Source of the DNA: a virus
Virus record (IMG/VR): IMGVR_UViG_3300037069_002560
Coordinates: 1-20,911 of that record
Length of the DNA: 20,911 bases
Reading direction: 5' to 3' (one strand)
The position numbers and the translations under genes were made by a program. Below, in pieces: positions 9,727 through 15,974 of the stretch. The notes under the pieces were generated by a model. That model had not been told where the DNA came from, did no database searches, and worked only from the letters and a program-made list of their open reading frames with translations. The stretch's first letter is position 1. Every line of letters begins with the position of its first letter.

Positions 9727-9948
9727 CTACTCCTCGGTAACGGCCGGCGCGGCGACCGGCGGTTGGACGTCCTTCTTCGCCGCAGCCTTCGGCTTGGCGG
9801 TTGACAGGTGCGGGTCGCTGAACTTCTCCGGCAGCGACACGTCGGCGCTTTCGCCGGGGCCGAGCTCGAGCGTCGTACCGGTCTCGGCGTTGACCAGATG
9901 CGGCCAGGTGCGTCGCAGATGGTGGGTATTTGTGACGCGGTGCAGCAT
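9727..9948 (-). CDS. Small protein of unknown function between tail terminator and tube genes
   Basis: A 73-residue protein starting at ATG 9948 with AAAGGGG about 8 bases upstream. Its stop lies 3 bases before the tail tube ATG and its last codons supply that gene's GAGGAG site, so expression of the two is probably coupled. Residues 1-45 look like a short beta domain (LELGPGESADVSLPE). Residues 48-73 are a Lys/Ala/Pro-rich flexible tail. Short proteins of this look occur in head-tail joining clusters of actinophages, but I recognise no defined family. A virion joining or decoration role is possible and unproven. Confidence 0.65.
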   Translation of the reverse strand: MLHRVTNTHHLRRTWPHLVNAETGTTLELGPGESADVSLPEKFSDPHLSTAKPKAAAKKDVQPPVAAPAVTEE

Positions 9949-11937: not shown

Positions 11938-11995
11938 GCTGCTCCGTGGAAGTCCCGGTGCGGCGGCACGGAGCAGCGGACCGCCGCACCGGGAC
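11938..11995 (-). promoter_or_regulatory. Structured leader: 15-bp hairpin with a competing 11-bp pairing
   Basis: GTCCCGGTGCGGCGG (11952-11966) is perfectly complementary to 11981-11995, a 15-bp stem with a 14-base loop. Within that loop, 11967-11977 (CACGGAGCAGC) is perfectly complementary to 11938-11948. The RNA can therefore fold as the long hairpin, as an alternative hairpin, or as a partial pseudoknot. It lies 18 bases after the capsid stop and ends 7 bases before the GAAGGG-containing ribosome site of the next gene. There is no U-tract, so it is not a classic terminator. Confidence 0.7.
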
Positions 11996-12012: not shown

Positions 12013-13527
12013 CTACGCGCCGGCGCCGATGTTGTCCAAAACGCCCATCACGGCCGAAGCCTTGTTGATGAACGCCTGCATCGACCGGACCTCGAAGTCG
12101 TACCGAGGGCCACCGTTGGCGCCTGCAGCGCGGTTCGCGCCGTAGTCGAACCGGAAGAAGTCGTACTGCGTGCGGACCTGCAGCGCAGCGGTGACATTCG
12201 ATCCGGGGAACGGCAGCTGGTCGACGACCGCGACGATGCGGCCAGGCGGCAGGTTCGGCTGCAGGTGCAGCGGAATCGGCCGACCGTTGACGGTCTTGTT
12301 CAGGTACGTCGCGACGTGACCGCCAGCGACGACCTCACCGCGACCGACCTTGTCGTCCGGCACCAGCCACGTCACGGCCTGCGGGTTGTCCAACACCGCG
12401 TTCGCGATGTCGGTCAACACCTGACTGCCCATGAGCATCCGGGTCGGCGTGACCTGGTAGGTGTCGTAGATCGACCGGTTCATGTCGTCGATCTGCTCGA
12501 GCGCCGCACCGGAGACAGTCAGCGCGCTACCGTTGAGGGACTTCCAGTACGCGCCCTGGCTGACACCCGAGCCGGGGGTCACCAGGTTCGCGGTCGCGCC
12601 CGGGGTCAGCGCTTGATCCGGTGATGCGGAGAAGTCACCGAGGATCGACGCGGCGAGCCCGTTCCCCCAGTACGTCTGGTACGACGTGTCGGCGACAGGC
12701 ACCGACGCGGGGCCCGGCTGCCCGGCGTTGTAGAGCCCGGCGTACCCGGTCGGCACGTTCTGTGTCGTGCCGGGGACCGACGTGATGGTGACGGTGTTCG
12801 TCGGGGTAGTGGTGTAGTACTTCTCGGTGCCGGCGCCGGTGCTGACGTACCAGTCATAGCCGGTCGCGCCCTTCACCGCAGGCACCGATGCGGTCACCGA
12901 GTTCGTCGAACCGGTCAACGCGCCAGTGTTCGCCTCCGCTGAGGCCACACCGGAACCGCCGTAGTACCAGTTCATCCCGGACCGCGCCGCGGCCTTCACG
13001 TACACCGTGACAGCACCGATGGTGCCGCCTGTGCTGGCCGAGACGAGCGTCGGGGTGCCGATTGCCGGCAACGCGAAGCTCTGCGCGTTCAGCTCGTGAC
13101 GGTCCAGCATGATGAGCAGCTGGTTGATCGTCTGCAGCGTGTCGACAGCGAGCACGTCGGCGTAGTCAGCGCCCTGCGCGATCGCGTCCCACGTGACCAG
13201 ACCACCCGCGCCGACCGCCGCGTACGGCGCGTACACCCACTGGTTCTGGATGTTGATGACCGGCGCCGCTTCGCTCTTCGGCACACCACCGTCGGGCTGG
13301 CTCGAGTTGAGGTTGAGCAGCACTTGGAACATCGCCGCCGTCGCGCCCTTGCCTCGGCCACGGGGGACCGAGTTGAAGAACGGGACGTCGACCGGGACCC
13401 ACGACATGATGTCGTCGAGAAGGTCGATACCCGCGATGCCGGTGGTCGTGTCGATACCGGCGGTCGCGGCCTTGATCATGCTGAAGGTGTCCTCGGTGAC
13501 GCCGAGAACGTCTGCACCCCAAGACAT
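12013..13527 (-). CDS. Major capsid protein, HK97-fold, with inserted Ig/Fn3-like domain
   Basis: A 504-residue protein starting at ATG 13527, with a strong AGGAG site 8 bases upstream. Order of parts: N-arm (1-45), a PFFNSVPRGRGKGATAAMFQ segment (49-68), a helical spine (DVLAVDTLQTINQLLIMLDRHE, 124-145), an inserted beta domain (about 157-254), then the rest of the core. Core signatures include TPTRMLMGSQVLTDIANAVLD (360-380) and a late YDFFRFDYGANRAAGANGG segment (455-473). The insert carries VKGATGYDWYVSTGAG (218-233) and NTVTITSVPG (244-253), typical of Ig/Fn3-like phage surface domains. Position after protease and scaffold genes, plus its own structured leader and best ribosome site, fit the most abundant virion protein. 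No separate N-terminal delta domain is seen; a separate scaffold gene is present instead. Confidence 0.88.
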   Translation of the reverse strand: MSWGADVLGVTEDTFSMIKAATAGIDTTTGIAGIDLLDDIMSWVPVDVPFFNSVPRGRGKGATAAMFQVLLNLNSSQPDGGVPKSEAAPVINIQNQWVYAPYAAVGAGGLVTWDAIAQGADYADVLAVDTLQTINQLLIMLDRHELNAQSFALPAIGTPTLVSASTGGTIGAVTVYVKAAARSGMNWYYGGSGVASAEANTGALTGSTNSVTASVPAVKGATGYDWYVSTGAGTEKYYTTTPTNTVTITSVPGTTQNVPTGYAGLYNAGQPGPASVPVADTSYQTYWGNGLAASILGDFSASPDQALTPGATANLVTPGSGVSQGAYWKSLNGSALTVSGAALEQIDDMNRSIYDTYQVTPTRMLMGSQVLTDIANAVLDNPQAVTWLVPDDKVGRGEVVAGGHVATYLNKTVNGRPIPLHLQPNLPPGRIVAVVDQLPFPGSNVTAALQVRTQYDFFRFDYGANRAAGANGGPRYDFEVRSMQAFINKASAVMGVLDNIGAGA

Positions 13528-13540
13528 TGGGGGATCTCCT

Positions 13541-13637
13541 GTTCTCCCCGCTCACGCGGGGTCCGTGCCGACGTCGGGGCATGAAAAAAGCCACCGCGAC
13601 GGGTGGCCTTTCGGGTTGGCCCCGCGTGGGGCAGAAC
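13541..13637. repeat. Inverted pair of related hairpins flanking a terminator stem
   Basis: The plus-strand hairpin CCCCGC-TCAC-GCGGGG (13546-13561) and hairpin GCCCC-GCGT-GGGGC (13619-13632) are inverted, imperfect copies of each other including the neighbouring GTTCT (13541-13545) and AGAAC (13633-13637). CACGCGGGG (13553-13561) pairs exactly with CCCCGCGTG (13620-13628). They bracket the terminator stem at 13590-13607. This fills the 115-base gap between scaffold and capsid genes. Confidence 0.7.
13584..13607 (-). terminator. Intrinsic terminator between scaffold and capsid genes
   Basis: On the minus strand, GCCACC-CGTCGC-GGTGGC (13607-13590) forms a 6-bp GC-rich stem with a 6-base loop and is followed by T6 (13589-13584), the classic rho-independent form. 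It lies inside the operon, 57 bases upstream of the capsid ATG, so complete termination would silence capsid and tail genes. Partial termination or antitermination is implied. No convincing promoter was seen between it and the capsid gene. Confidence 0.75.
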
Positions 13638-13642
13638 GGGTG

Positions 13643-14332
13643 TTAGACGCCGATGACCTGCTGGTCGTCGGGCAACGCCCGACGGTTCGTGATCAGCGGG
13701 GTTCCGCGACCTGAGATCGTCGCGACCTGGCCCGGCTCCGGGTTGGCGATGAGCTTCGCCATCGTGCGCCGGCGTGCAGCGTCACGCCGCTCGGTCTCGT
13801 TGCGCGCGTTGTCGACTGCGGCGTCGAGCTCCTTGAACACGCTCGAGCCTTCGCCACCGCGCGGGACCCCCGCTGCGTTGACCATCGGACGGGGACGTGC
13901 GTCCTGCTCAGCGATCGCGACGACCTGCTTCTGCAGGTTCTGCACGGTCTCGCTGATGTCGGCAAGGCTCTTGCTCAAGTCCGCCGTGGGGATCTGCGTC
14001 GCCGACTGCCCGTCCTGGGCCTTCGCGGCAGCCTCTGCCTCACGCTTCGCGGCCTTCTTTGCGGCCTTGTCCTTGCTGGCCTGCTTGGCGGCACGACGAA
14101 CCTCGTCGCGCTCGTCCAGCAGCTTGATGAGCTCGTCGCGATCCATGTCGATGATCTCCTTCGATGTTGGAGCGTCGCCCTTGGACGCTTCCGCCTTCTC
14201 GCGCGCCTCGAACTGACGCGCAAGCTCCAATGTGCGCTGAGCGGCCTCGACCGCCTGCTGCGCGAGTGCGATGTCGTGCGCTTCCCAAGCACGGCTGCCA
14301 GGCGTTTCCGCCGAGCCGTTGGCCGCCGACAT
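13643..14332 (-). CDS. Possible internally initiated short scaffold (229 residues)
   Basis: Methionine 224 of the scaffold frame is an ATG at 14330-14332, preceded by an AGAAGAAGGGC stretch that gives a Shine-Dalgarno-like AGAAGG about 8 bases upstream. The start falls at the junction of the disordered acidic linker and the conserved helical scaffold part (PGSRAWEAHDIALAQQ). Several phages make a scaffold from an in-frame internal start, lambda C/Nu3 being the best known. This is an inference from position and site quality; the GAAGAAG run also simply encodes Glu-Lys-Lys-Lys. Confidence 0.35.
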   Translation of the reverse strand: MSAANGSAETPGSRAWEAHDIALAQQAVEAAQRTLELARQFEAREKAEASKGDAPTSKEIIDMDRDELIKLLDERDEVRRAAKQASKDKAAKKAAKREAEAAAKAQDGQSATQIPTADLSKSLADISETVQNLQKQVVAIAEQDARPRPMVNAAGVPRGGEGSSVFKELDAAVDNARNETERRDAARRRTMAKLIANPEPGQVATISGRGTPLITNRRALPDDQQVIGV

Positions 14333-15001
14333 CGGCTTGCCCTTCTTCTTCTCGACCTCATCGGTCTGCGACGTGGCCTCACCGCGGCCACCGTCGTCGT
14401 CGGACGCGTCCGCGTGATCACCGGTCAGGTCGACGTCGTCTGCTTTCTGCGCGCCGTCGGTCTGCGAGTCGGCCTCACCGCGAGGCACGTCCTTGTCCGG
14501 CGCCGTGTCGCCCGGCCCGCCGTCCTCCGGCGGTGTGTCGTCTTGCGCGGCGACCGCCGGCCGCTGCCCGCCGTCGTCGGCGACTTCGCTGACCGGCGCA
14601 CCCTCCGGCGCGCACAGCTCCTCGGTCTGGTGCTCGCCCTGCGCGTGGTCGACTTCTTTGCTCACGTGCCACTCCTCCGGCAGTAGATGGGTCAGGTGAA
14701 GCGCACGAGCGCGGGCGATGATGTGCCGCTTCGCTTCGGCCTTGTCGCCGGTGTACTCGGCGAGCCGGCCGATCGCGGACTTCAGGTGCCCCTCGTCCGG
14801 GATCGGAAAGTCACCGTTGGGCATCGCGACACCGGAATCGGCGTACTTGCGGCGCGCGGCGGCCGACACGTACTTGACGAGGCCGTCGGCGGACAGGCAG
14901 CTGTCGAGGTTTTTCAGCATCAGCCACGCAGTGCCGTTCGCCGGGCTACCGACGGCGTCGACACGCTCAGGCTCGAGGAACTCGAACTCGGTGATTCCCA
15001 T
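13643..15001 (-). CDS. Capsid scaffold protein with N-terminal accessory domain
   Basis: A 452-residue acidic protein starting at ATG 15001, with AGGAG upstream next to the protease stop. The N-terminus (RVDAVGSPANGTAWLMLK, 13-30) matches the start of protease/scaffold polyproteins. Residues 59-111 (AMPNGDFPIPDEGHLKSAIG, then helices ending LLPEEW) form a small conserved helical domain resembling DUF6582. Residues 115-223 are an acidic Gly/Asp-rich linker. From 224 to about 355 lie strongly charged helices, including an Ala/Lys/Glu-rich coiled coil (314-343); 350-385 are another coiled coil, followed by a basic tail. This fits an internal scaffold that nucleates the shell and is cut by the neighbouring protease. 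An internal ATG at 14332 may give a shorter scaffold. The catalytic protease is in the adjacent gene, so this is not expected to be an enzyme. Confidence 0.75.
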   Translation of the reverse strand: MGITEFEFLEPERVDAVGSPANGTAWLMLKNLDSCLSADGLVKYVSAAARRKYADSGVAMPNGDFPIPDEGHLKSAIGRLAEYTGDKAEAKRHIIARARALHLTHLLPEEWHVSKEVDHAQGEHQTEELCAPEGAPVSEVADDGGQRPAVAAQDDTPPEDGGPGDTAPDKDVPRGEADSQTDGAQKADDVDLTGDHADASDDDGGRGEATSQTDEVEKKKGKPMSAANGSAETPGSRAWEAHDIALAQQAVEAAQRTLELARQFEAREKAEASKGDAPTSKEIIDMDRDELIKLLDERDEVRRAAKQASKDKAAKKAAKREAEAAAKAQDGQSATQIPTADLSKSLADISETVQNLQKQVVAIAEQDARPRPMVNAAGVPRGGEGSSVFKELDAAVDNARNETERRDAARRRTMAKLIANPEPGQVATISGRGTPLITNRRALPDDQQVIGV

Positions 15002-15003
15002 GA

Positions 15004-15612
15004 CTACCTGCTCCTGAGGTTGGCCAGCGTCTCAGCGCTGGGGGTACGTCGCCTCGCTCGGCCTTGCGGAGAGAACCCGTTGTACTTGCCAGCTTTGACG
15101 TCAGCCCACGTCGGCGCGTCCCACTGCACGCCGAGGAGCCAGTCGCCAGCCTTGATGACGACGTCGGAACCGTCAGCGGCCTTCAGATGCCAGTCGGGGC
15201 CGCGGTAGATATAGCTCTCGACGACGGTGCCGTGGCCGGCCGTGCCGTCAACATGGTTCAGCCCGATCTCGCGGGACTTCTGCATGTACGACCACGCGGC
15301 GTCCTCGAGCACATCCTGGTTAGCGAAGTCTTGGAAACCGTCGGCGGCCTTGCCGACGTCGGGCAGGTTCGCGCCGTACGCGAGCCCGAGGGTGAACCGC
15401 CGGTCACTGTCGGACTTCACGACGAAACACGCCACGTCGTCGCCGCTGGCTTTGACCGCGCCGGCGTCGCGCAGCGTCGCGACGATGTTCGCGGCGGCTT
15501 GCTGCGTCGAAATCCCGGCCGCCTCAGCGGCGCACCGCAGGTCGGTCAGCGTGATATGCCGGGAGTCGCCGTGCGCGTCGTCCGGGCGGTCACACCCGCA
15601 GGAGAGGCACAT
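15004..15612 (-). CDS. Prohead maturation protease, XkdF-like (S78-type)
   Basis: A 202-residue protein starting at ATG 15612, sharing one base with the upstream TGA and preceded by a GAAGGAGAAG site. A longer reading up to 16047 is rejected because it overlaps two genes without ribosome-site support. The N-terminus (CLSCGCDRPDDAHGDSRHITLTDL) is a Cys-rich segment frequent in actinophage proteases, followed by a helical part. The C-terminal half follows the XkdF / Peptidase_S78_2 outline: a GLNHVDG histidine (H120), VVESYIYRG (130-138), KAGDWLLGVQW (154-164) and W-ADVKAGKYNGFSPQG with S181. H120 and S181 are the probable catalytic pair. The enzyme would cleave scaffold and capsid N-termini in the prohead. 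It sits next to its presumed scaffold substrate. Confidence 0.85.
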   Translation of the reverse strand: MCLSCGCDRPDDAHGDSRHITLTDLRCAAEAAGISTQQAAANIVATLRDAGAVKASGDDVACFVVKSDSDRRFTLGLAYGANLPDVGKAADGFQDFANQDVLEDAAWSYMQKSREIGLNHVDGTAGHGTVVESYIYRGPDWHLKAADGSDVVIKAGDWLLGVQWDAPTWADVKAGKYNGFSPQGRARRRTPSAETLANLRSR

Positions 15613-15974
15613 CACTTCTCCTTCTCGCCGACGAGACTGTTCCATGGCACGAGCACGGTGCAGAACTCGCTCGCGAACTTGGCGTTCTTGGCGTTGTTGT
15701 CGATGAGCAGCGACACGTTGCGTTTGCGGCAGAACTTCGCTTTCGCCTTGTGCGGCGGCGCGGGGAACACGACGATCTCGTCCCAGCAGTGACCGAGCCC
15801 GAGACTGTTCAGGTAGCCGATCTTGTCGGCAACATCCTGCTGCGTCGGCTGGTCGGTGCTGCACCCGGTCATCACGATCACGACGTGGCCGGCAGCGCGT
15901 AGCGCGGTCATCAGCGACTGCATCGTCGCCGGGTCGGCGTCGATGGTGCCGTCGAGGTCCACGCCGACGATCAC
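15612..15974 (-). CDS. HAD-superfamily phosphatase-like protein inside the head operon
   Basis: A 120-residue protein. The start is GTG 15974, overlapping the portal-fusion stop as GTGA, because GAGGAGG lies just upstream; an ATG at 16013 has no such support. Motifs of a minimal HAD fold are present: D6-L-D8-G-T-I (motif I nucleophile and acid/base), VIVMTG with T36 (motif II), a Lys-rich stretch near K80 (motif III), and LLIDNN with D92 (motif IV). N93 replaces the second acidic residue often found there. There is no cap domain of note, so macromolecular or nucleotide phosphate substrates are possible. Small HAD proteins occur in phages as nucleotide or DNA-end phosphatases. Here the gene lies between portal and protease genes, not in a metabolism cluster. 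The substrate is unknown. Confidence 0.75.
   Translation of the reverse strand: MIVGVDLDGTIDADPATMQSLMTALRAAGHVVIVMTGCSTDQPTQQDVADKIGYLNSLGLGHCWDEIVVFPAPPHKAKAKFCRKRNVSLLIDNNAKNAKFASEFCTVLVPWNSLVGEKEK

Follow-up and report, generated by a model that had tools for sequence, protein, structure and literature searches.

The RNA of the major capsid protein (MCP) gene analyzed here is structured beyond chance on both flanks in the capsid family, and far more so on the downstream flank than on the upstream one. The explanation that we prefer, to which we give about an even chance of being right, is that the MCP cistron is enclosed by two RNA structures acting as punctuation, the upstream of them being the 115-nt gap that precedes the capsid gene. 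In the predicted sequence of events, some of the transcripts that carry the portal, protease and upstream genes would end at the U-tract of the gap, where the stem would protect their 3' ends, and the remaining transcription would read through. The read-through RNA would then be trimmed by host nucleases to a capsid mRNA with a 5'-proximal hairpin and a long 3' hairpin, and this mRNA would thereby have an amount and a lifetime of its own, distinct from those of its low-copy neighbors. Weighing against this explanation, a terminator placed before the gene of highest copy lowers its transcription unless efficient read-through or stability compensates. The late operon of a phage yields hundreds of capsid subunits and few portals, which is often ascribed to 'translation efficiency'; a capsid cistron flanked by RNA marks, the downstream one near-universal in the capsid family and the arrangement recognizable in the isolated Arthrobacter phages Sonali and Mufasa8, would open this question to direct testing.

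The stretch of DNA analyzed (hereafter the window) is an IMG/VR virus record of 20,911 bases with its genes coded on the minus strand, to which all coordinates given below refer, in an order resembling that of Arthrobacter phage Sonali. The gene for the terminase (20789-19260) and that for a portal-MuF fusion of 1092 residues (19249-15971), in which a NUDIX hydrolase domain (about residues 657-717) sits between the two parts, precede the gene for a capsid maturation protease (15004-15624, 5' end approximate; Peptidase_S78_2, XkdF-like, E = 4.6e-16), a gene for 452 residues (13643-15001) and the MCP gene (12013-13527; 504 residues, 39.8% identity to Sonali gp7), downstream of which further head and tail genes are found. 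The initial annotation was broadly correct in speaking of an operon of overlapping genes; its naming of the gene upstream of the capsid gene as a scaffold gene is not established, this 452-residue gene product giving no Pfam or PHROG match above cut-off. The gene is the positional equivalent of Sonali gp6 and Mufasa8 gp5. The MCP start (ATG at 13527) and reading frame are consistent with those of the relatives. An upstream in-frame AUG, contained in the CATGCCC sequence described below, was considered as the true MCP start and rejected, the frame being inconsistent among the relatives, two of which (L021 and L022) read CATACCC. Another record (IMGVR_UViG_3300036651_002277) encodes a terminase 100% identical to that of the window and probably represents the same phage; it breaks off before the gap, within the gene that precedes the capsid gene.

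The gap (13642-13528) extends from the stop of the ORF at 13643-15001 to the MCP start codon. It opens with arm 1 (GTTCTGCCCCACGCGGGG; 13637-13620) or the first hairpin (GTTCT followed by GCCCC-ACGC-GGGGC; 13619-13637), identified from the sequence as an inverted repeat, and continues with the terminator hairpin (GAAAG followed by GCCACC-CGTCGC-GGTGGC; 13590-13612), identified by folding and inverted-repeat search, whose 6-bp GC stem GCCACC/GGTGGC occupies 13607-13590. The T6 tract (U6 in the RNA; 13584-13589) comes next, and behind it lie the tail CATGCCCC (13576-13583), common to many other terminators, and the palindrome CCGACGTCGG (13568-13577), seen in both sequence and fold within a small stem TGCC..GGCA. 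Arm 2 or the capsid-proximal hairpin (CCCCGCGTGAGCGGGGAGAAC; CCCCGC-GTGA-GCGGGG followed by AGAAC; 13541-13561), again identified from the sequence as an inverted repeat and closed by a GTGA loop of the GNRA type, is located directly before the Shine-Dalgarno (SD) sequence AGGAG (13536-13540), which is 8 nt before the capsid ATG. According to the repeat search, the two arms share a 9-nt perfect inverted repeat (CACGCGGGG/CCCCGCGTG) with a spacing of 58 nt, plus GTTCT/AGAAC. All three structural elements of the initial annotation are therefore present: a stem with T6 oriented with transcription (13607-13584), the two bracketing hairpins able to pair together (9 bp plus GTTCT/AGAAC), and the GTGA-loop hairpin near the capsid ribosome site, for which protection of the 5' end of a processed capsid mRNA is a plausible candidate role.

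With its GC-rich stem-loop and a U-tract immediately 3' of the stem on the transcribed strand, the central element is by sequence a putative intrinsic terminator. It resembles Rho-independent terminators also in its short loop, in the A-tract before the stem and in its orientation with the operon; unlike those standing at operon ends, it is located inside the late operon, with 56 nt between the end of its U-tract and the start codon of a structural gene. A consensus terminator scan of the window did not list it; we think that the scan may miss it, since the stem can extend into the U-tract by A-U and G-U pairs. No sigma-70-type promoter was found between the terminator and the capsid gene, either by a scan or by eye; Rfam 15 gave no family at gathering score and nothing relevant at a relaxed threshold for the window; and a DNA comparison of the gap with isolated phages yielded nothing beyond short and weak matches (E = 0.06) in unannotated parts of Arthrobacter phages.

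Searches with the MCP yielded about 88 loci from viral contigs, MAGs and isolated phages, 67 of which are non-redundant at 95% MCP identity. Their pre-capsid gaps are 20 to 123 nt long; a hairpin of -9 kcal/mol or better is contained in 49 of the 67, leaving 18 without a strong hairpin, and the 49 hairpin-bearing gaps divide into 11 with a strong U-tract, 10 with a partial one and 28 with none. Compared with dinucleotide shuffles of the 64 testable non-redundant relatives, hairpins followed by a U-tract (T>=5/8) were observed 8 times versus 0.38 expected, and hairpins of -18 kcal/mol or better 21 times versus 7.6 expected. Hairpins of -9 kcal/mol or better (41 versus 37.6, by a search differing slightly from that behind the count of 49) are of a moderate strength expected by chance, because the gaps are GC-rich. 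Strict terminators were found in 20 of 86 gaps, duplicates included, versus 0.9 expected. In the ten-member clade of the window, the U-tract is absent from the other nine, five of which have no strong hairpin. On the tree, the U-tract has changed at least 5 times and the hairpin state 12 times, so that the upstream mark is recurrent but labile; it is also dispensable, since most relatives have lost the U-tract or keep only part of it and the hairpin is not strong in 18 of the 67. RNAalifold, applied to the set of upstream gaps, gave only 4 pairs, two of them with compensatory changes, a low yield that is due to the differing stem lengths of the relatives. This lability, together with the finding that shuffled GC-rich gaps fold well too, would suit the view that the gap is a product of chance or a relic, in which the stems are incidental to a GC-rich spacer and do nothing. 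We consider that view quite improbable in light of the excess of U-tract hairpins at the pre-capsid position across the relatives and of the window itself, where the 131 nt around the gap fold at -58.5 kcal/mol, a value that no dinucleotide shuffle out of 200 equaled (z = -3.28), and where T6 is the only place on the coding strand, over the whole 20.9 kb, with at least 5 consecutive T.

In the window and many relatives, U6 is followed by CATGCCC; 19 of the 67 relatives have this sequence within 120 nt upstream of the MCP gene, versus 1.15 expected. Additional copies of a hairpin with T5-6 and CATGCCC were noticed in three loci, at 1673 nt before the capsid gene (L063), at 9771-9787 (L055) and at 3333 nt after the capsid gene (L078). 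The string GGGNTTTTTTCATGCCC was found in at least 120 stretches of viral contigs, versus 47 in all for a scrambled tail. Among the viral matches listed, and with near-duplicates removed, an SD sequence and an ORF follow within about 60 nt of hairpin-U6-CATGCCC in 48 of 98, versus 23 of 88 with other trinucleotides and 3 of 32 with the scrambled tail, these counts being affected by the shared ancestry of the contigs. The genes behind the tail, among the matches listed, are most commonly those for tail tube proteins (three Pfam families, with 14, 6 and 4 of 69 genes), next those for head scaffolding proteins and then some for major capsid proteins. In many viral contigs (loci L090-L209), a terminator-like hairpin, CATGCCC and an SD sequence immediately precede genes for tail tube, scaffold and capsid proteins. 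A literature search with the string TTTTTTCATGCC returned no relevant paper. Five exact copies of GGGNTTTTTTCATGCCC were found in 297 bacterial genomes of one phylum; they resemble ordinary terminators, and two of them are located close after a tRNA-like sequence. Among the trinucleotides after the U-tract, CAT is over-represented, and ATT and TAT are also common. Accordingly, CATGCCC was rejected as a phage-only signal, and its occurrence in what appear to be bacterial terminators favors a true terminator over a special signal.

Another possibility, which we hold to be distinctly less probable than an even chance, is that the gap serves for processing only, its hairpins acting as ribonuclease barriers or guides with a cut in the U-rich linker or at the C of (G)CAU and with no termination. 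Consistent with it, the hairpins remain in the 28 of 67 relatives without a U-tract, the post-capsid hairpin mostly has none either, and the stem is followed in several relatives by GG↓CAU or GU↓CAU, fitting the preferred cut RN↓CNU of the RNase E of M. smegmatis, a mycobacterium (PMC10641625). The window, however, reads UU↓CAU; the roughly 20-fold enrichment of U-tract plus hairpin over shuffles is not predicted by processing alone; and the same tail stands behind the terminator-like hairpins of the bacterial genomes. A further reading, that a full terminator keeps the capsid part of the late operon off (for example, in a lysogen) until a phage antitermination system allows polymerase to pass, is unlikely. 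Although a canonical stem and U6 immediately before the capsid gene, and the recurrence of terminator-like sequences before structural genes in many viral contigs, are what such a gate would display, the terminator does not gate the portal, protease and terminase genes, which lie upstream of it, the 20,911-base fragment contains no gene identified as an antiterminator or lysogeny gene, and close relatives with the same capsid gene have no U-tract.

The initial annotation had further proposed an attenuator, in which the outer arms, by pairing with each other, could hide or expose the terminator, thereby setting the scaffold-to-capsid ratio. The arms are indeed able to pair (9 bp plus 5 bp), and their pairing dominates the full-length ensemble (P 0.83-0.93). 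The order of the elements in the RNA, however, is arm 1, terminator, U-tract and arm 2, so that arm 2 (13561-13541) cannot affect termination, being transcribed only after the U-tract (13589-13584); the segment that would do the switching is thus not made before the terminator is complete. When pairing was computed for transcripts that carried 0-300 nt of upstream RNA and ended at U3, at U6 or at full length, each base pair of the terminator had a P of 0.88-1.0 at every transcript length. In the best fold of the full gap (-56.9 kcal/mol), the outer arms pair around an intact terminator (P 0.996), and the fold with forced local hairpins (-52.0 kcal/mol) again contains the terminator; therefore the outer arms neither hide nor expose it, and no mutually exclusive structure that removes it was found. 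As for the stem conservation in relatives on which the initial annotation made its proposal depend, a hairpin with a U-tract before the capsid gene is borne out in the wider family, but the arms are not, as they were found in no relative's gap upon reading by eye. The proposal is contradicted by the order of synthesis, by thermodynamics and by this absence, which makes it very improbable, and in the explanation that we prefer the gap contains no ligand- or arm-driven switch.

The downstream counterpart in the two-mark explanation is a hairpin with a perfect 15-bp stem (11952-11995), detected by both the structure scan and the repeat search, that begins 17 nt after the capsid stop and ranks first among the structural outliers of the coding strand. 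The second strongest outlier on this strand is a 12-bp hairpin (GCGTCCGACAAC..GTTGTCGGACGC; 4006-3947, z = -4.6) inside the large ORF 4238-1104. In the profile of local structure around the MCP gene over all loci, the clearest peak is located 20-60 nt after the stop (mean z of -2.0 and -1.6 in 60-nt windows), and 52% of the windows at 20-40 nt after the MCP stop are below z -2, versus a background of 3%. The best post-stop window is below z -3 for 81% of 64 MCP stops (median best z -4.16), versus 11% of 213 other ORF stops chosen for being followed by at least 40 nt of gap (Mann-Whitney P = 8e-26). Of the 24 strong hairpins behind these other ORFs, 8 belong to the stop just before the MCP gene, that is, to the pre-capsid gap. 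The sequence of the post-MCP stems varies widely between relatives with the pairing kept. Compared with the terminator-like element by itself, the two marks around the MCP gene, and most of all the one behind it, are the better conserved and more general feature. Because the post-capsid hairpin mostly has no U-tract, the two flanks need not work alike. In Sonali and Mufasa8, U7 behind a hairpin and then a long hairpin are both placed directly after the capsid gene rather than before it, indicating that the placement of terminator-like and long hairpins around the MCP gene varies.

It is worth comparing this arrangement with those of other systems. The gene 10 (capsid) module of phage T7 comprises the promoter phi10, an upstream RNase III site and the terminator Tphi, and the capsid cistron of the window is similarly set apart from its neighbors by flanking RNA structures; in contrast to T7, no phage polymerase or promoter was recognized in the window, the upstream mark is itself terminator-like, and the downstream hairpin mostly does without a U-tract. 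The puf operon of Rhodobacter has an intercistronic stability hairpin, and the hairpins described here could likewise give the segments of one mRNA different lifetimes. The SAS/ESAS elements of Cluster K mycobacteriophages are SD-containing start-site elements with a 13-bp consensus, GGGATAGGAGCCC, next to the start codon; about half of them have 17-bp imperfect inverted repeats just upstream, mostly with spacers of 4-13 bp, the RNA pairing of which finds little support according to the authors, and the SAS sites are repeated in the non-structural half of the genome (PMC3203893). The gap shares with them an SD-containing start site with inverted repeats upstream but differs in its spacer of 58 nt and in being a single element before a structural gene. 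The SAS consensus is absent at the capsid start, where the context reads AACAGGAGATCCCCCAATG.

The loop of the post-capsid hairpin may connect the capsid cistron with the next gene. In the window, 11 nucleotides (11977-11967) of the 14-nt loop are complementary, 11 of 11, to CACGGAGCAGC (11938-11948), which lies 3 nt behind the hairpin and upstream of the SD sequence, ending about 20 nt before the next start codon (11917). In eleven loci of clades A (that of the window) and B, the loop matches the SD sequence of the next gene itself, in the forms GGAGGAC (two loci), GGGAACC, GGAGCC, AGGAGAGCA, CAGGAGGTC (two loci), AGGAGGTCA, AGGGAAC, GGAGCAA and GGAGGT, all 0-9 nt before the start codon. When each loop was paired with the leader of another locus in 5000 permutations, the loop-leader match sum of clades A and B (165) exceeded the permuted value (132.4 ± 5.5), with none of the permutations as good, which indicates co-variation, for a relation that had been noticed by eye on part of the same data before the test. 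For nine newly fetched B-like loci, the sum was 47 versus 42.7 ± 2.5 (P = 0.07), so that the co-variation was not independently confirmed, in a small set that includes related loci, at least two of which (L375 and L382) are not independent of the discovery set. The same permutation test gave no loop-SD signal in clade C or in the upstream gap (P = 0.94). Loop-SD pseudoknots of translational control are exemplified by the leader of T4 gene 32 and by IncI repZ, which the loops and SD sequences of the relatives, with co-variation in the discovery set but P = 0.07 in the new loci, may resemble; the window differs from them in that its 11-bp match stops about 20 nt short of the next start codon and follows the stem at a distance of 3 nt. 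Because only these 3 nt separate the match from the 15-bp stem, a full pseudoknot is sterically doubtful in the window, and the two pairings are probably alternatives. We would put forward only tentatively, as less likely than not, that structured RNA delimits the capsid mRNA on both sides and that, in clades A and B, the downstream loop reaches the next SD sequence, so that one element would both end the capsid message and throttle translation of the gene that follows. The capsid SD sequence is itself found inside a small hairpin in the upstream gaps of four relatives (L002, L012, L040 and L085), for example AUGCCC-AGAAA-GGGGCAU and GGUAACUC-GAAAG-GAGUUGCC.
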